Assembly (NCBI GenBank): GCA_902801845.1 | Contig: CADCJW010000005.1 | Span: 1-64,000 of the forward strand | DNA length: 64,000 nucleotides | Direction: 5' to 3' | DNA from: an uncultured Eubacteriales bacterium | GTDB taxonomy: Bacteria; Bacillota; Clostridia; Christensenellales; CAG-138 | Program-made: the position numbers and the translations under genes | In this document: positions 30,200 to 38,224 of the stretch, in pieces | Layout of the letters: each line of letters starts with the position of its first letter | Position numbering within the stretch: the first letter of the stretch is position 1 | Notes under the pieces: model-generated | The model's database searches: none | Told to the model about the DNA's origin: nothing | What the model saw: the letters and a program-made list of their open reading frames with translations, nothing else

Positions 30200-31129
30200 A
30201 TGAAAAAGCTTTTGCTCATCTGTATACTGCTTGCCCTCGTTCTGCCGGGCTGCGCCCGGGAGGCGGCCGCACCGGCTGCGGAGGCTGCGCCCACGGCGGT
30301 GGCGGTGGCCATGGCGCCCGTCACGGCGGCGCCCACGGTCCTGCCGGAGCAGCAGATCAGCATCGACGTATCCGTGGAAGAAACGGCCGTACCCACGCCG
30401 GTGCCCACGCCCGAGCCCACCTCTACGCCGGCGCCTACCCCCACTCCCTCCCCCACGCCAGAACCCGGTCCCCTGGAGGGGATCGTCATCGGCGTCGATC
30501 CGGGGCACCAGCGGGTGTATGATCCAGCGCCGGAGCCCGTGGCCCCCAATTCCCGGGAAACCAAGCAGAAGGTGGCCGGCGGCTGCCGGGGCGTGAAGAG
30601 CGGCGTGTATGAATATGAGGTGAATCAGAACGTGGCCCTGCTCCTCAGGGACCTGTTGGAGAAGGCCGGGGCCACGGTGGTCCTGACCCACGACAATCTG
30701 GACGTGAACATCTCCAACATCGAGCGGGCCAAGATGTTCAACGAAGCCAACGTGGACTTGGGCATCCGTCTCCACTGCAACAACGGCGGCAGCGGGAAGA
30801 AATACACCGGCGCCTTCATGCTGGTGCCCACGGAGAACCGGACCCGGTTCTACGAGCAGAACGTCCAGGCGGCCACCATCATCCTGGCGGCTTACTGCGA
30901 AGCGACGGGCCTCCCCACCCGGTACAAGGACGGCATCACCTACCGGAGCGATCAGACTGGCTTCAACTGGTGCGAGCGGCCCATCATCAACATCGAGATG
31001 GGGCATCTAAGCAACCCGGCGGAGGACGCGCTCCTCAGCGACCCCGCCTTTCAGGAGAAGATGGCCCAGGGCCTGTTCAACGGCATCCTGCAGTACTTCC
31101 GCCCCGATCTATTTGGGGCCAACGAATAA
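30200..31129 (+). CDS. N-acetylmuramoyl-L-alanine amidase lipoprotein
   Basis: A 309-residue Amidase_3 enzyme that cuts the amide bond between the glycan and the stem peptide of peptidoglycan. It has a lipoprotein signal (LPGC, lipidated C18), then an Ala-rich and Pro-Thr-rich linker (about residues 20-92), then the zinc amidase domain with DPGHQ, RLHCNN and IEMGHLSNP bearing metal ligands and the catalytic glutamate. It would act at the outer face of the membrane in cell-wall turnover or division. No Shine-Dalgarno site; the transcript appears leaderless. Confidence 0.9.
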   Translation: MKKLLLICILLALVLPGCAREAAAPAAEAAPTAVAVAMAPVTAAPTVLPEQQISIDVSVEETAVPTPVPTPEPTSTPAPTPTPSPTPEPGPLEGIVIGVDPGHQRVYDPAPEPVAPNSRETKQKVAGGCRGVKSGVYEYEVNQNVALLLRDLLEKAGATVVLTHDNLDVNISNIERAKMFNEANVDLGIRLHCNNGGSGKKYTGAFMLVPTENRTRFYEQNVQAATIILAAYCEATGLPTRYKDGITYRSDQTGFNWCERPIINIEMGHLSNPAEDALLSDPAFQEKMAQGLFNGILQYFRPDLFGANE

Positions 31130-31161
31130 AGAATACTTTGAAAAAGGAGCTGCTATCCACC

Positions 31162-32382
31162 ATGGAATCCCCCATCAGCGTACGTTCCGAGGTCGGAAAA
31201 CTCAAGACCGTCCTGCTCCACCGCCCCGGCGTGGAGCTGGAGAACCTGATGCCCGACTATCTGTCCCATCAGCTCTTCGACGACATCCCCTACCTCATCT
31301 ACGCCCAGCAGGAACACGACACCTTCGCCTGCATCCTGCGGCAGTGCGGGGTGAACGTGGTGTATCTGAAGGATCTGCTGTGCGAAGCGGTGAATCGGGC
31401 CGGTGTCCGGGAGGAGCTGGTGAACGACTACGTGCGGGAGGCCCATCTCTATGGCTCCTACATGCAGGAGGCGGTGAAGGAATATCTGTTGGCCCTGCCC
31501 ACGGACAAGCTGTTCGACGCCATGGCCGGCGGCGTGCGCAAGAGCCAGATCCCCAAGCTCACCAAGTACCATCTGGTGGACTACGCCCAGGAGGACTTCC
31601 CCTTCTACGCCGAGTCCATGCCCAACCTGTACTTCACCCGGGACCCCTTCGCCTGCCTGGGCAACGGGGTCATCATCTCCCACATGGCCAACGAGATCCG
31701 GCAGCGGGAGACCCTGTTCGCGGATTACATCTTCCGGTATCATCCCATCTATAAGAACGTGCCCCACTGGTACGAGCGGAACAAGGCCTGGTCCATCGAG
31801 GGCGGCGACACCCTGGTGCTGAACGAAAGGACCATGGCCATCGGCATGAGCGAGCGCACCAGCCCCCAGGCCATCGAGGACATGGCGGAGAAGGTCCTGG
31901 GCGCCGACATGGGCGTGGAGCAGATCCTGGTCATCGACCTGCCCAAGTTCCGCACCTTCATGCACCTTGACACGGTCATGACCATGGTGGACGTGGACAA
32001 GTTCGTGGTGCATCCCAACATCCAGCGGTCCATGCGTTCCTTCCTGCTGACCAGGGGCGACGGGAAGCGGAAGCTGAACATCGAGGAGACCGACCTGCCC
32101 ATCGACGAGGCGCTGCAAAAGGTCATGGACCTGGACAAGATCACCCTGATCCGCTGCGGCGGCGCCAGCACCATCGACGCGGCCCGGGAGCAGTGGAACG
32201 ACGGCGCCAATACCTTGGCGGTGGCTCCCGGCGAGGTGATCACCTACATCCGCAACCACGTGACCAACAGCATCCTCCGGGACCACGGCATCACCGTCCA
32301 CGAGATCCCCTCCTCCGAGCTCTCCCGGGGCCGGGGCGGCCCCCGCTGCATGAGCATGCCCTTTGTGCGGGATGGGATCTAA
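31162..32382 (+). CDS. arcA: Arginine deiminase
   Basis: A 406-residue enzyme hydrolysing arginine to citrulline and ammonia, the first step of the ATP-yielding deiminase pathway. Catalytic elements are the EGGDTLVLN segment, FMHLDTVMT with the histidine, and the active cysteine C396 in GGPRCMSMP. The N-terminus SEVGKLKTVLLHRPG is typical. AAGGAG lies 12 bases before the ATG, 32 bases after the amidase gene. No arcB, arcC or arginine/ornithine antiporter is nearby, so the rest of the pathway must lie elsewhere. Confidence 0.95.
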   Translation: MESPISVRSEVGKLKTVLLHRPGVELENLMPDYLSHQLFDDIPYLIYAQQEHDTFACILRQCGVNVVYLKDLLCEAVNRAGVREELVNDYVREAHLYGSYMQEAVKEYLLALPTDKLFDAMAGGVRKSQIPKLTKYHLVDYAQEDFPFYAESMPNLYFTRDPFACLGNGVIISHMANEIRQRETLFADYIFRYHPIYKNVPHWYERNKAWSIEGGDTLVLNERTMAIGMSERTSPQAIEDMAEKVLGADMGVEQILVIDLPKFRTFMHLDTVMTMVDVDKFVVHPNIQRSMRSFLLTRGDGKRKLNIEETDLPIDEALQKVMDLDKITLIRCGGASTIDAAREQWNDGANTLAVAPGEVITYIRNHVTNSILRDHGITVHEIPSSELSRGRGGPRCMSMPFVRDGI

Positions 32383-32413
32383 GAACGACATCCATATCGA
32401 TCCAAAACAAGAT

Positions 32414-32450
32414 GCGACCCGGAGCCCCTGCTAAACAGGCTCCGGGTCGC
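32414..32450. terminator. GC-rich hairpin between arcA and the NRAMP-like gene
   Basis: A perfect 13-bp stem (GCGACCCGGAGCC / GGCTCCGGGTCGC) with an 11-base loop, placed between convergent genes. It lacks a U tract on either side but is strong enough to mark the 3' ends. Confidence 0.65.
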
Positions 32451-32473
32451 GCCGTCAGGATGGGATGATCCTG

Positions 32474-33736
32474 TTATCCGTTGATCAGCTTCATGAAGGA
32501 CTCGGTGAAGCCGGTCATGTTCTTGAAAGCGATGAGCAGCGTCAACGCCAGCACGATCACGCCCAGGATGTTGATCACGATGCCGTTGTTGTGACCGTCC
32601 ATATACTTCTTGTCGTTGCAGACGATCATCAGCAGGATGGCGGTGATGGGCAGCAGGAAGGCGTTGGCCGCCTGAGCGAAGAGGATGATCTCCGTGGGGG
32701 AGGCGCCGATGGTGCACACAGCCACCAGACCGAAGACGATGACGATGCCCCAAATGGCCATGAACCGCTTCTTCTTCATGTCCTCGCCCCAGCCCAGGAT
32801 GCCGGAGCTGGCGAAGGCCGCGGCCAGAGGCGCCGTGATAGCGGAGCTCATGCCGGCCGCGAAGAGGCCGATGCCGAAGGCCACCGTGGCCCAGTTGCCC
32901 AAAATGGGTCGGAGCTGCTCTGCCATGGCTTTGCCGCTGGCGATGGCCGCCGTGCCGGAACCGTCGTAGCAGACGGCCGCGGTGATGACGATGCACATGG
33001 AGATGATGCCGCCCAAACCGATGGACAGGATGGAGTCGGTGAGGGAGGTGCTGAGGGCTTCGTCCTTGTCCCCCTCATGGCCCCACTTCTTGGCGGAGGA
33101 GGAGGCGTGCAGGTAGATGTTGTAGGGCACGACGGTGGTGCCGATGAGGCCGGTCACATAGAACCAGGCCCGGTTCATCTGGGGCACCCGGGGCACGAAG
33201 AGGCCCTTGAGCACTTCGCCCCAGTTGGGCTGCACGGCGATGGCGGTGATGAGGAACAGGACGCCCATGAGCACCACCAGAGCGGTGAGCACCTTTTCCA
33301 CGATGTCATATTTGCCGGAGAGCAGAAGGCCTGCCGCCACGGCGAACACGAAGATGGCTACCGGGATCTTGCCGAGGCTGGGCCAGATGGCCTGCAGGCC
33401 CAGGATGCCGCCGGAGATGTTGCCGGTCTCATAGGCTACGTTGCCGATGAACACGGCGCCGATGACCAGGATCGCCAGCAGGATGCGGACGCCCTTGCCG
33501 GTGTACTTTTCACGCAGGGCCTCGCCCAGGCCCACCTTCTTCACGATGCCCAGCTTGGATGCCATGCTCTGGAGCACGATGACGGAGATCGTGGAGAACA
33601 GCAGCGCCCACAGCAGGGTGTAGCCGTAGCTGGCGCCAGAAACGGTGCAGGTAGTGACGGTGCCCGGGCCGATAAAGGCCGCCGCGACGACGGCGCCGGG
33701 GCCCACTTGCTTGAGCCTTTTCCAGAAATTACTCAT
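32474..33736 (-). CDS. NRAMP-family transporter without the metal motif (YcsG-like)
   Basis: A 420-residue protein with about 11 membrane helices of the LeuT-fold NRAMP family. The metal-binding DPGN of helix 1 is replaced by G23-P-G-T26, and the helix-6 MPHN motif by V203-P-Y-N206 before LHASSS. Both changes remove side chains that hold Mn or Fe in true NRAMP proteins. It is the last gene of the 5-oxoprolinase operon, as ycsG is linked to it in B. subtilis, so an organic substrate such as 5-oxoproline is a more likely cargo. Good Shine-Dalgarno AAGGAGGG. Confidence 0.85.
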   Translation of the reverse strand: MSNFWKRLKQVGPGAVVAAAFIGPGTVTTCTVSGASYGYTLLWALLFSTISVIVLQSMASKLGIVKKVGLGEALREKYTGKGVRILLAILVIGAVFIGNVAYETGNISGGILGLQAIWPSLGKIPVAIFVFAVAAGLLLSGKYDIVEKVLTALVVLMGVLFLITAIAVQPNWGEVLKGLFVPRVPQMNRAWFYVTGLIGTTVVPYNIYLHASSSAKKWGHEGDKDEALSTSLTDSILSIGLGGIISMCIVITAAVCYDGSGTAAIASGKAMAEQLRPILGNWATVAFGIGLFAAGMSSAITAPLAAAFASSGILGWGEDMKKKRFMAIWGIVIVFGLVAVCTIGASPTEIILFAQAANAFLLPITAILLMIVCNDKKYMDGHNNGIVINILGVIVLALTLLIAFKNMTGFTESFMKLING

Positions 33737-33812
33737 AGTTCCCTCCTTGTTTTATCTTGTTCCATATGTAGACAGGCAGATTAGCAGTTTCTGTCTGATC
33801 TATCCAGTTGCG

Positions 33813-34643
33813 TTACGCCTGGTGCTTCTTTTGTTCCAGATAGTCGTTGAGCTCGCTGTTGAGGATGTCGGTGACGAACATGTGGCCCGGGGAATGGGTG
33901 ATGACGATGGGCGGCTTGGCGTTTTCGATGGCCGCCTGGGGAGTAACGCCGCAGGGCCAGAAGACGGGCACCTCGCCGGGATACACGTCCACCGCCTCGC
34001 CGTAGTCGGGCTTCATCACATCCGGAACGCCGATGTTCTCCGGTTCTCCGATCTGGATGGGGGCGCCGTGGACGTTGGGCATGGCCGCAGTGATCTCATA
34101 GGCCCGCTTGGCGTCCTCGGGAGTCATGGGCCGCATGGAGCACACCGTAGGCCCGCAGAAGGGGCCGGCCGGTTTGGTCATGATGCTGGTCTTGTACATG
34201 GGCACGTTCCGCCCCGTGGCGATGTGGCGCACCTCGATGCCAGCCCGCATGAGCGCCTCCTCGAAGGAGAAGCTGCAGCCGATCAAAAAGCCCACCATGC
34301 CCTCCTGCCAATAGGGGGTGGCGTCGGTGCACCGGTCCACCAGCTTGCCGTCCTTGTAGATGAAGTACTCGGGGATGTCGGTGAGGATGTTGCCGTCCTC
34401 CCCCATGTCGTGGGTGTGGGGGTCGCCGTCTAGCACCTCCAGGATGGGGCAGGGACCGGGGTTCAGCCGGGCAAACTCCTTGAAGTCTTCGGCGTACTCC
34501 TTGGGCAGGATCACCAGATTCGCCTGGGCGTACCCGGCGCACATGCCGGCGGTGGGGATGCTCTTGACCTTTCCGGAGCGCACCAGGCGGCGCAGTTCTA
34601 CGGGGGCCATGTTCACATACTGGCTGATGTCAAAGTTGGGCAT
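33813..34643 (-). CDS. DUF1445 / D-glutamate cyclase-like hydro-lyase (YcsI-like)
   Basis: A 276-residue cytosolic protein of the DUF1445 family (PF07286). Typical segments are AGMCAGYAQANLVILP near the N-terminus, FLIGCSFSFEEALMRAGI, and CSMRPMTPEDAKRA. A mammalian protein with this domain converts D-glutamate to 5-oxo-D-proline, which would suit its place between pxpC and the transporter. The bacterial reaction is not proved. AAAGGAGG precedes the ATG and it follows pxpC by 11 bases. Confidence 0.85.
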   Translation of the reverse strand: MPNFDISQYVNMAPVELRRLVRSGKVKSIPTAGMCAGYAQANLVILPKEYAEDFKEFARLNPGPCPILEVLDGDPHTHDMGEDGNILTDIPEYFIYKDGKLVDRCTDATPYWQEGMVGFLIGCSFSFEEALMRAGIEVRHIATGRNVPMYKTSIMTKPAGPFCGPTVCSMRPMTPEDAKRAYEITAAMPNVHGAPIQIGEPENIGVPDVMKPDYGEAVDVYPGEVPVFWPCGVTPQAAIENAKPPIVITHSPGHMFVTDILNSELNDYLEQKKHQA

Positions 34644-34654
34644 GGGTTCCTCCT

Positions 34655-35722
34655 TTACGCGTCGTAGTTTTGTTCCTCGATGTAGATGTCGTACTCCTCC
34701 CCGTCCACATAGATCAGGAAGCGTCCTGCAGGCGCGGGCAGTTCACCCTCGCCCTCCGCCTCCGGCTTCAGGCGAGCCAGGAATCGTTTTTCCAAATCGT
34801 TCAGCGCCTTCTGCTGCCGGCGGTACACCGCCTGGGCCGCCGCCGCGGACACGGGCCGGAAGCGGACCTTATCCCCGGCTTTGAGCTGAGCGAGCAGCGG
34901 CAGATCCGCCGTGATCACGCAGCCCAGCTTGGGATAGCCTCCGGTGGTCTGCCGATCCGCCATCATGACGATGGGCTGGCCGTTGGTGATCTGGATGGCG
35001 CCGAAGCAGATGCCGTCGGAGATGATGTTCCCGTCGCTCCCCGCCGCCCGTTCTACCGGGGGACCGTCCAGCCGAAAGCCCATGCGGTCGCTCTTGTCGC
35101 TGAGGGCATACTCGCTGGATGTGAAGGTCTGCTTCCCGGTGGCGCTGAAAAGATCGTCCTGGGGGCCGTAGGTGAAGCGCACCGTGACCTCATTCATAAG
35201 CTCGGGCAGCATCTTGGCCGGAACGAACCGATCCTCTAGATCGGGTAGATACTCACAGGGGGCCCTGAGCCCGATCTCGTCCCCGTCGTGGATGGGACGG
35301 CCCTTGAAGCCGCCCACGCCGCCCTTGAGGAAGGTGGAGCGGCTGCCCATGACCTCCTCCAGATCCAATCCGCCTGCAAAGGCGATGTAGGCGCGGGCGC
35401 CGGCCTTTGCCATGGGCAGGGACAGCACGTCCCCCGCCTCGGCAAGATAGGCCCGATCGTTCTCTATGGGCTGGCCGTTCAGGGTGGGACCAAAGTCGCC
35501 GCCGGTGACGGCGAAGATCTCCGCTTCCCCGAAGACGATGGTGGGGCCCATAACGGTGGCTTCGATGACGGCCTCGCTGCGGGGATTGTTCACCAGGATG
35601 TTGGCAAGCTCCATGGCGTAGTGGTCCATGGCGCCGCATACCGGCATGCCGTACCGCTGATAGCCGATCCGGCCTAGGTCCTGGACCGTGGTCAAAAGGC
35701 CCTTCTTTTGGAAGGTGATCAC
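34655..35722 (-). CDS. pxpC: 5-oxoprolinase subunit C
   Basis: A 355-residue subunit (KipA family) of the ATP-dependent enzyme opening 5-oxoproline to L-glutamate. The N-terminal FQKKGLLTTVQDLGRIGYQRYGMPVCGAMD is diagnostic, as is MADRQTTGGYPKLG. It overlaps the end of pxpB by 4 bases (ATGA), consistent with PxpB and PxpC forming a complex. The carboxyltransferase-like fold is shared with urea-amidolyase domains. Confidence 0.93.
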   Translation of the reverse strand: MITFQKKGLLTTVQDLGRIGYQRYGMPVCGAMDHYAMELANILVNNPRSEAVIEATVMGPTIVFGEAEIFAVTGGDFGPTLNGQPIENDRAYLAEAGDVLSLPMAKAGARAYIAFAGGLDLEEVMGSRSTFLKGGVGGFKGRPIHDGDEIGLRAPCEYLPDLEDRFVPAKMLPELMNEVTVRFTYGPQDDLFSATGKQTFTSSEYALSDKSDRMGFRLDGPPVERAAGSDGNIISDGICFGAIQITNGQPIVMMADRQTTGGYPKLGCVITADLPLLAQLKAGDKVRFRPVSAAAAQAVYRRQQKALNDLEKRFLARLKPEAEGEGELPAPAGRFLIYVDGEEYDIYIEEQNYDA

Positions 35723-36435
35723 GCCTTGTCACCTCCCTCCCCGTATTCCTCGGGATAGTTCTCTCGACGGATGCGCTCATATTCCGCTTCGTCGATGGGA
35801 TAGAAGATCATGTTCATGCCCGCGTCCACCAAAATGGCCTTCTCCCGCTTGGGATCGTAGAGCCTGAGGGGCGTTTGTCCGATGAGCTGCCAGCCTCCGG
35901 GGGAGGTCAGGGGATAGATACCCGTCTGGGACCCGGCGATGCCCACGGAGCCCGCCGGGATGCTCACCCGGGGCGTGGTCAGCCGGGGCGTGTGGATGCG
36001 CTCGTCCAGACCGCCCAGATAGCAGAACCCGGGCAAAAAGCCCAGCATGTAGTTGAGGTAGACGGGGGCGGTGTGGATCTTGATGACCTCTTCCGGGGTC
36101 ATATCGTGGAGCTTGGCCACGTTCTCCAGGTCCGGCCCATGGGACCCGCCATAGAGCACGGGCACCCGGATCTCGCCGGCGGGCGGGATATCCGCCTCCT
36201 GAAGGCCGTTCACGATGCGGCTCAGCTTCTCGTAGAGCCGGGCGTAGCCGATGACCTCCGGCCGGTAATGGACCGTGACGGAGCGATAGGTGGGCACCAG
36301 CTCCGTGACCCCTTCGATCTCGGCCGCCTCGGCAGCCACGGTGAAGGAGCGGACCTGCTTGTTGATCTCCTCCGAGATTGCGTTCCCGAATTCCACGCAC
36401 AAAGAGCAATCGGAGGAAGTCAGGATCTTTGCCAT
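35719..36435 (-). CDS. pxpB: 5-oxoprolinase subunit B
   Basis: A 238-residue KipI-family subunit. Key segments are SVTVHYRP, the GFLPGFCYLGGLDERIHTPRL block and PGGWQLIGQTP. The start MAKILTSS was chosen because GGAGG lies at ideal spacing; an ATG four codons upstream overlaps that site. In B. subtilis KipI inhibits the sporulation kinase KinA, but the primary role of the family is 5-oxoprolinase with PxpA and PxpC. It follows pxpA by 15 bases. Confidence 0.93.
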   Translation of the reverse strand: MAKILTSSDCSLCVEFGNAISEEINKQVRSFTVAAEAAEIEGVTELVPTYRSVTVHYRPEVIGYARLYEKLSRIVNGLQEADIPPAGEIRVPVLYGGSHGPDLENVAKLHDMTPEEVIKIHTAPVYLNYMLGFLPGFCYLGGLDERIHTPRLTTPRVSIPAGSVGIAGSQTGIYPLTSPGGWQLIGQTPLRLYDPKREKAILVDAGMNMIFYPIDEAEYERIRRENYPEEYGEGGDKA

Positions 36436-36450
36436 AGCTTCCTCCAAATC

Positions 36451-37221
36451 TTATGAAACGAACGTATGGAAGGGAGCCAGGGCGATGCCCTCCTCCCCCA
36501 GCTTCTGCCGGATGCGGCTGGTGAAGGCAAGGGCCTTGGGGCCGTCGCCGTGGACGCAGATGGAGTCGGCCTTCACGGGGATGTCCCGACCGGTGATGGC
36601 GGTGACCTTGCCCTCCTTGATCATGCGGACCACCCGGGCGATGGCTTCCTCCTCATCCTCGATCATGGCGCCGGGCTTCTTCCGGTTCACCAAGGAGCCG
36701 TCCTCCTCATAGGCCCGGTCCGCGAAGATCTCGCTGGCGGCCTTGAGGCCCAGCTCCTGAGCCGCTTCGATGAGCTTGGAGCCGGAAAGGCCCAGCAGGA
36801 TGATCTCCGGGTCGAAATCCTTCACGGCTTTGCAGATGGCCAAGGCCAGGTTGATGTCCTTCCCGGCGGTGTTGTACATGGCGCCGTGGGCCTTCAGATG
36901 CTGGATCTCCAGGCCGTTCTTCTTGGCAAAGGCTGCAAAGGCGCCCAGCTGATAGAGGGTGTAGGCGTACTCCTCGTCGGGCGTCAGCTTCATGTCCCGC
37001 CGTCCAAAGCCCATGAGGTCAGGATAGCCGGGATGGGCACCCACGCACACGCCCTTCTCCTTCGCCATGGCCAGGGTCTTGTTCAGCACCACCGGGTCCC
37101 CCGCGTGCCAACCGCAGGCCACGTTGGCGGAGGTCACCTGCTCCAGCACCTCGGCGTCACAACCGATCTTGTACGCGCCGAAGCTTTCCCCCAGATCCGC
37201 ATTCAAATCGACTCTAAACAT
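36451..37221 (-). CDS. pxpA: 5-oxoprolinase subunit A
   Basis: A 256-residue LamB/YcsF-family protein, the first gene of the operon. DLNADLGESFGAYKIG at the N-terminus, ANVACGWHAGDP and GAHPGYPD are family hallmarks. With PxpB and PxpC it hydrolyses 5-oxoproline using ATP. Substrate would come from spontaneous glutamine cyclisation and from the pyroglutamyl peptidase at 52923-53519. AAAGGAG precedes the ATG; a consensus promoter lies 110 bases upstream. Confidence 0.94.
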   Translation of the reverse strand: MFRVDLNADLGESFGAYKIGCDAEVLEQVTSANVACGWHAGDPVVLNKTLAMAKEKGVCVGAHPGYPDLMGFGRRDMKLTPDEEYAYTLYQLGAFAAFAKKNGLEIQHLKAHGAMYNTAGKDINLALAICKAVKDFDPEIILLGLSGSKLIEAAQELGLKAASEIFADRAYEEDGSLVNRKKPGAMIEDEEEAIARVVRMIKEGKVTAITGRDIPVKADSICVHGDGPKALAFTSRIRQKLGEEGIALAPFHTFVS

Positions 37222-37330: not shown

Positions 37331-37359
37331 AGTATACGAAGATAAGGCCGATCTGTCAA
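37331..37359 (-). promoter_or_regulatory. Promoter of the 5-oxoproline operon
   Basis: Minus-strand TTGACA (37359-37354), 17-base spacer, TATACT (37336-37331). The untranslated leader of about 100 bases is A/T-rich; it holds a short CATGT-TT-ACATG inverted repeat followed by seven T, too weak to call a terminator. Confidence 0.75.
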
Positions 37360-37428: not shown

Positions 37429-38166
37429 TCATCTTATATACTGCATAATTGTGATTAAACCGGAGATGCCGATGAAGACGTATACGACCATCTTCATCTT
37501 GTCTATATCCAGCCGGTCCGTGAGCTTGGTGCCGAACCACTGCCCCAGCAGCACCCCCAGGATGCCCGCCACGGTGATGGGGACGAGCTGAAGGGAAAAC
37601 AGGCCCTTCATCGCCTTGTTGACGAAGATGATGACGTTTGTGATGAGGAAGATGAACTGCATGTTGGCGGTGTAGCTTTCCTTGCTGCGGGAGGCGCCGA
37701 TCAGATAGACCGCTAAAAAGGGGCCGCCGACGCCGAAAAAGCTGGCGGTAATCCCGGACAGAAAGCCGCAGATCACGCCCGCCGAAGGGGTGGGCTTGGT
37801 TTTGAGCCGCTTGGCAATCAGAAGGTAATAGAGGCACAGCAGCATCTGGAACACGCCGAACAGGATACCCAGCACCTGTAGATCGATCCTCTTCACCACC
37901 AAATTGACCAGGGTGCTGGAGATGAGGTACGGGATCAGGGGGATCAGGATCAGCTTGAACTGTATCTCCCGGCGGAGCTTCCAGGCCAGGGCCAAGCACA
38001 GGAACACGCACACCAGCAGATTGACGGCAGGCGCAGTCAGCATGTCGAAGAATTGGGATAAAACCAACATCAGCAGGACCCCGGCGCCGAACCCGCATAC
38101 GGTCTGTATGGCCCCGGCCGCCGCGGCGGCGCACAGTATGATCAATAGAACGGCCCAAGTCGGCAT
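37429..38166 (-). CDS. TauE/SafE family permease
   Basis: A 245-residue membrane protein with about eight helices. QTVCGFGAGVLLMLVL in the first half and ASFFGVGGPFLAVYL in the second are the paired family motifs. Members export sulfite, sulfoacetate or related organic anions. The start MPTWAV follows GGGAGGAG. It lies between the 5-oxoproline operon and a divergent paralogue, but its substrate cannot be read from sequence. Confidence 0.85.
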   Translation of the reverse strand: MPTWAVLLIILCAAAAAGAIQTVCGFGAGVLLMLVLSQFFDMLTAPAVNLLVCVFLCLALAWKLRREIQFKLILIPLIPYLISSTLVNLVVKRIDLQVLGILFGVFQMLLCLYYLLIAKRLKTKPTPSAGVICGFLSGITASFFGVGGPFLAVYLIGASRSKESYTANMQFIFLITNVIIFVNKAMKGLFSLQLVPITVAGILGVLLGQWFGTKLTDRLDIDKMKMVVYVFIGISGLITIMQYIR

Positions 38167-38224
38167 GCGCTGCTCCTCCCTCATTCGATCCGCGCGGGGA
38201 CATGAACTCCGTCAGGATATGAAA

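Follow-up and report, generated by a model that had tools for sequence, protein, structure and literature searches.

A transporter gene at the end of a 5-oxoprolinase operon

The window, the whole 64,000-nucleotide stretch of DNA analyzed here, carries on its minus strand five co-directional genes in the order pxpA, pxpB, pxpC-like, D-glutamate cyclase, and transporter. The first three encode 5-oxoprolinase subunits: PxpA, a LamB/YcsF protein (36451-37221 (-); PF03746, 340 bits; NF003814 above cut-off), PxpB, a CT_C_D protein (35719-36447 (-); PF02682; TIGR00370 above cut-off), and a PxpC-like CT_A_B protein (34655-35722 (-); PF02626, 309 bits; TIGR00724 above cut-off, with the NCBIfam PxpC equivalog model below its cut-off). 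The fourth is a D-glutamate cyclase family gene of the YcsI/MumU type (33813-34643 (-); PF07286, 225 bits; NF003969 above cut-off); this family, PF07286 D-Glu_cyclase, is the same as DUF1445 and as the "putative hydro-lyase". The last, at 32474-33736 (-), is an open reading frame of 420 amino acids that scores 299.8 bits to the Pfam Nramp model PF01566, cut-off 29.8. Counted from pxpA to the transporter, the spacings between successive genes are 3, -4, 11, and 76 nt, the negative value being an overlap. The Pfam and NCBIfam matches, with these coordinates, confirm the initial annotation in its reading of the transporter as the final gene of a pxpA-pxpB-pxpC-DUF1445-transporter series. No second PF01566 match was found in the genome to which the window belongs.

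A promoter-like site before pxpA (TTGACA-17-TATACT, 37331-37359 (-)) has 11 of 12 matches, and is weak evidence by itself because one such site was found where shuffled sequences give 1.4. At the other end, a hairpin 3' of the transporter (32414-32450 (-); RNA fold of 32395-32480, -40.6 kcal/mol, z -3.79; weak T-tail) probably marks the end of the operon; it was not among the matches of a terminator scan. Directly upstream of pxpA lies a TauE/SafE family permease gene (37429-38184 (-)), with the promoter-like site between the two, and an arginine deiminase gene (30970-32382 (+)), another nitrogen-related neighbor, converges on the operon. The open frame of 439 amino acids opposite the transporter gene (32465-33784 (+)) is probably an artefact of codon composition.

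Ligand positions, predicted fold, and two families

In the translated reading frame, residues 23-26, in the unwound part of TM1, read GPGT in place of DPGN (codons at 33659-33670 (-)), and residues 203-206, in the unwound part of TM6, read VPYN in place of MPHN (codons at 33119-33130 (-)), exactly as first annotated. An AlphaFold2 model of the protein (mean pLDDT 92.1) has the NRAMP fold, with TM1 broken at residues 21-23 and TM6 at 202-203. Its best fold matches are NRAMPs (for DraNramp, 6c3i, Z 53.3 and rmsd 2.0 over 382 residues, at 24% identity), and the amino-acid carriers AdiC and ApcT come next, at Z about 29-30. In APC amino-acid carriers TM1 and TM6 are unwound, and backbone amides of a GxG segment hold the carboxylate of the substrate. 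The TM1 GPGT and TM6 TTVVPYN segments may be unwound in the same way, so that the GxG backbone amides, with Thr26 and Thr28, would hold a substrate carboxylate, while Tyr102, Asn106, Tyr205, Asn206, and Asn358 would line the rest of the pocket; these assignments are read from a ligand-free model. A neutral polar pocket around the GxG turn, as predicted, would be better suited to a small carboxylate than to a bare divalent cation.

The window protein belongs to a family that we designate G1, whose members are 42-72% identical to it. Across 35 aligned G1 sequences, the Asp of DPGN is Gly and its Asn is Thr in all 35, the TM6 Met is Val and the His is Tyr in all 35, and the TM3 Glu is Asn in 34 and Asp in one, while canonical NRAMP sequences keep D, N, M, H, and E in 13 of 13. 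The signature described for NRMTs, DxxG in TM1 and TxxA/T in TM6 (PMC8806188), is not found either, the window protein having GxxT and TxxV. That the change of motif might be a one-off is ruled out by this alignment together with the Bacillota sample and the named loci described below.

Pxp-linked NRAMP-fold proteins form two distant families, G1 and a second, G2, with an identity of about 22% and a range of about 20-25% in the pairs compared. In a tree built without the motif columns, the G1 clade (35 rows, window included) has support of 97/95 and G2 of 100/100; the deeper order depends on branches of SH-aLRT 93-94 in a quick tree with a midpoint root, which does not show the two to be sisters. 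The G2 motifs are GPGF in TM1 and GGTVGGY in TM6, and the window protein lacks the IGPGF/GGTVGGY signature; at 22-24% identity to the G2 members of Bacillus badius and Acinetobacter baumannii, it also falls short of the more than 40% taken as a mark of that group. Common to both families, in all or nearly all rows, are Gly at the Asp position, Thr28, a (Y/F)..GN motif in TM3, Thr201 and Tyr205 in TM6, Ser298 in TM8, and Asn358 in TM10; neither has an acid at the site.

G2 is the commoner pxpABC partner in Bacillota. One genome, with a subtilisin 97% identical to subtilisin E, encodes a 404-residue GPGF/GGY G2 protein in the order pxpA-transporter-DUF1445-pxpB-pxpC, and B. subtilis YcsG (PDB model 9a52) is 18-20% identical to the window model; YcsG is therefore not a G1 protein. 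The window protein was accordingly rejected as an orthologue of YcsG/PxpT, YcsG-type proteins being G2 members 18-25% identical to it. Corynebacterium glutamicum PxpT is placed in G2 solely through its published 50% identity to YcsG (PMC13274462). MumT of A. baumannii, with AMGPGFLTQ and GGTVGGY, is a G2 protein as well. The mum locus has the order LysR, MumT, LamB/YcsF, D-glutamate cyclase, KipI-type fusion, biotin carboxylase. Its MumL belongs to the PxpA family and its MumU to the D-glutamate cyclase family, and the operon looks pxp-like. This mum-type locus (L339; CAKLQH020000001.1, 56830-69987) was read from a 328-kb record labelled "Acinetobacter phage MD-2021a", which looks like a mislabelled bacterial contig. 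Biotin carboxylase genes accompany G2 in Moraxella and Shinella plasmids too. In another NRAMP-like group (L262 and L263; contexts L327 and L328) TM1 has LGPGS; this group adjoins a dihydrodipicolinate synthase family gene in L327, and by eye L328 has a similar neighbor.

Linkage to oxoprolinase genes

A sample of 299 Bacillota genomes, in which sequences were chosen by Pfam family without regard to motif, gave 130 PF01566 rows of at least 29 bits, which were compared with the PxpA matches of the same genomes; a row was taken as linked if it lay within 12 kb of PxpA by start coordinates. Thirty-four of the 130 rows are linked. Four of these are partial matches outside the motif count (in genomes G167, G005, G082, and G127), and the 30 sequences read all have Gly at the position of the metal-ligand Asp, nine being GPGT/VPYN (G1, window included) and 21 GPGF/GGY (G2). 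Every G1 protein of the sample, nine of nine with the window included, is encoded within 12 kb of pxpA. Unlinked NRAMPs have Asp at the first motif position in 79 of the 81 sequences read (50 DPGN, the rest NRMT-like or related), the two others having GTGT (L080) and GSGE (L090). No Asp-bearing NRAMP was thus found beside pxpA, and nearly all the Gly-bearing ones were found there. The check proposed in the initial annotation, whether NRAMP genes linked to pxpABC share the missing motif, has a clear outcome in this sample. The lone GTGT/VPYN relative of G1 (L080:6914-8194 (-)) lies away from pxpA, adjoining a gene for a DUF6282 protein, and may carry something else. For 60 Bacillota loci the query set covered genes other than HyuA and HyuB, so Hyu neighbors are uncounted there; within 1.5-kb flanks, no Pxp or Hyu match was found at canonical or NRMT loci.

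G1 ranges over Bacillota, Actinomycetota, Pseudomonadota, Bacteroidota, and haloarchaea. A profile of the family (alignment A2) was run on genomes of Actinomycetota (119), Bacillales (120), and Pseudomonadota (199), in samples centered on genomes chosen for holding G1. Scores split cleanly, with 16 G1 matches above 420 bits and all others at or below 240. Six of the 16 G1 genes lie within 12 kb of PxpA, or 4 of 13 once the three seed genomes are set aside, as against none of 207 other full-length matches. Fisher values for linkage over all the samples, that of Bacillota among them, ignore shared ancestry and are 3.3e-13 (window included), 5.0e-8, and, without the seeds, 7.5e-6. A further four of the 16 adjoin HyuA/HyuB genes or a fused HyuAB gene. 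No oxoprolinase gene was found close by for the remaining six (G376, G550, G456, G308, G746, and G565), and all six genomes carry PxpA elsewhere, which says little for the two Bacillales among them since PxpA occurs in 116 of the 120 Bacillales genomes. In one of the six, an actinobacterial genome (G376, contig 7; L231/L316), the G1 gene is split by an in-frame TAG, and its 8.6-kb contig has no oxoprolinase gene.

Named G1 loci are the best 80 of 577 listed, and the peptide patterns of the scan favor the motif; their motif count is for both reasons not independent evidence, as the Pfam-drawn sample is. Among these best 80, TM1 has GPGT in all 80, and TM6 has VPYN in 67, VGYN in 11, and VTYN in two. 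These variants, together with VPYT in L258, rule out a strictly VPYN motif in TM6. Pxp genes adjoin 61 of the best 80 (A, B, and C together in 59 cases) and Hyu genes adjoin 13, while six have neither as a neighbor. In Haloferax mediterranei the transporter, HyuA, and HyuB genes stand in series, as they do in the haloarchaea among the named loci, and in two Bacteroidota loci the transporter adjoins a HyuAB-type gene, a single frame of 1254 amino acids in L104.

The Pfam families matched by HyuAB-type enzymes are not those of PxpABC. The conserved linkage claimed in the initial annotation is not only borne out but extends to a second, non-homologous type of oxoprolinase. On the quick tree, the Hyu label changes five times among G1 rows, at least four of the changes being forced by starred branches, and sister rows with different enzyme partners include L104/L119 and L288/L290. 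This pattern suggests repeated exchange of the enzyme around a constant substrate. Several changes of partner between PxpABC and unrelated HyuAB/OPLAH-type enzymes suggest that this substrate is 5-oxoproline or a close relative. HyuAB-type enzymes also open hydantoins and caprolactam, so we can only infer that Pxp-linked and Hyu-linked G1 proteins share one. The best NCBIfam match of G1-linked HyuAB is a caprolactamase model, below cut-off, and the best solved chain for the fused form is an N-methylhydantoinase.

Substrate of G1 and comparison with known systems

In our judgment the window protein probably imports 5-oxoproline (pyroglutamate), as the L form, the D form, or both, or else a very close lactam acid. 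The imported compound would feed the neighboring PxpABC, an ATP-dependent 5-oxoprolinase, and probably the D-glutamate cyclase also, and the cell would thereby regain glutamate as carbon and nitrogen. Two distant families of NRAMP fold, G1 among them, would then fill this role. The initial annotation had proposed 5-oxoproline or a related organic acid, rather than a metal, as substrate. The absence of the metal ligands, the conserved linkage, and the second oxoprolinase type all point to an organic acid, but published data on G2 are at odds, 5-oxoproline uptake standing against Mn import. The six of 16 sampled and six of the best 80 named G1 genes that lack an oxoprolinase neighbor count against the 5-oxoproline reading. 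Searches of the available literature found no substrate, uptake, or mutant data for any G1 protein, and the experiments found concern G2. As reported, deletion of pxpT in C. glutamicum abolishes growth on 5-oxoproline, with complementation in trans, and a metal role is left possible (PMC13274462). B. subtilis YcsG has been renamed MntG: its overexpression raises cell Mn, an mntH mntA ycsG triple mutant was not obtained, and the paper remarks that the 5-oxoproline phenotype described earlier for YcsG might be polar (PMC10448178). Induction of MntG is further described as letting an efp mutant grow again with no iron or manganese supplement (PMC13055313). MumT is reported to be needed for Mn accumulation and urea use, and mumT deletion to lower cell Mn (PMC5050338).

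These Mn phenotypes of YcsG/MntG and MumT are the main ground for supposing that G1 proteins import Mn or Mg through an unusual site and are kept in the operon for metal-needing enzymes, as has been argued for MumT and MntG. The window model also shares its fold with DraNramp, EleNRMT, and BfraNramp (Z about 49-53), and NRMTs, which lack the Asn and Met ligands but keep the Asp, are reported to transport Mg and Mn (PMC8806188). We nevertheless consider metal import unlikely. G1 has no conserved acidic residue at the TM1, TM3, or TM6 ligand positions, whereas canonical NRAMPs and NRMTs alike keep the TM1 Asp; the other full-length NRAMP matches of the three samples are never near pxpA; and the C. 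glutamicum pxpT mutant, which failed on 5-oxoproline, is described as equal to wild type on glucose (PMC13274462). Export of 5-oxoproline or glutamate, relieving the build-up of a metabolite that is reported to form spontaneously inside cells (PMC13274462), seems very improbable, given that the G2 protein PxpT is needed for growth on external 5-oxoproline (PMC13274462) and that the window transporter gene is co-directional with catabolic genes at gaps of no more than 76 nt.

The neighboring enzymes might instead convert some other small lactam, hydantoin, or amino acid brought in by the carrier, D-glutamate or a hydantoin for example, with 5-oxoproline not the main substrate. The breadth of the enzyme class in HyuAB-linked members would accommodate such a carrier, as would the D-glutamate cyclase genes in the window and at several other loci. 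It is nonetheless rather unlikely, the partner being PxpABC, with 5-oxoproline as its published substrate, in 61 of the best 80 of the 577 loci listed.

Where the initial annotation spoke of loss of the metal site, the absence of the ligands from G1 stands, but the direction of change is probably wrong, as published trees place such proteins at the base. Nramp-related proteins are described there as paraphyletic at the family base, with one "G-motif 3" group holding MntG, so Gly may be the older state (PMC12873925). A broader reading, which we offer tentatively and would not yet favor, makes the TM1 GPG an old carboxylate site that amino-acid carriers with this fold also have. NRAMP metal transport would have arisen with the change of Gly to Asp, and G1 and G2 would be two surviving organic-acid branches serving 5-oxoprolinases. 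The effects of MntG and MumT on Mn would be secondary to 5-oxoproline or nitrogen metabolism.

The window protein scores 107.8 bits (cut-off 50) to NCBIfam model NF037982 and so receives its name, "Nramp family divalent metal transporter". If 5-oxoproline is indeed the substrate, this automatic name is wrong for an entire clade, one that spans at least five phyla. The literature on G2 is split between a Mn importer (MntG, MumT) and a 5-oxoproline carrier (PxpT, YcsG). Since both families lack the Asp and occur with oxoprolinase genes, and G1 is found with an unrelated oxoprolinase class as well, the dispute is directly testable. The question also bears on the origin of NRAMP metal selectivity.

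Among groups already described, the "orphan" Slc11 outgroup of Cellier 2023 has Y and N changes in TM3 and V and Y changes in TM6 that fit G1 (PMC10606218), and as a set of sequences the group therefore seems to have been published already; the available parts of that paper, and of the one describing the "G-motif" groups (PMC12873925), propose no substrate or pxp link for them. NRMTs, known for Mg and Mn transport and a signature of their own (PMC8806188), resemble G1 in fold, in the TM10 Asn, and at 25-27% identity (EleNRMT), but keep the TM1 Asp in 10 of 10 and have T/A-P-W/Y in TM6. Canonical NRAMP/MntH/SLC11 proteins share PF01566 with G1, which lacks their DPGN/MPH ligands and TM3 Glu and differs in genomic company. 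YcsG/MntG, PxpT, and MumT, of G2, differ from G1 in TM1 GPGF and TM6 GGTVGGY, in forming a separate supported clade, and in their low pairwise identity to it. They are like G1 in the NRAMP-like fold, in Gly for the TM1 Asp, in the TM3 GN and TM6 Tyr, and in their place in pxpABC or pxp-like operons, often with a D-glutamate cyclase.
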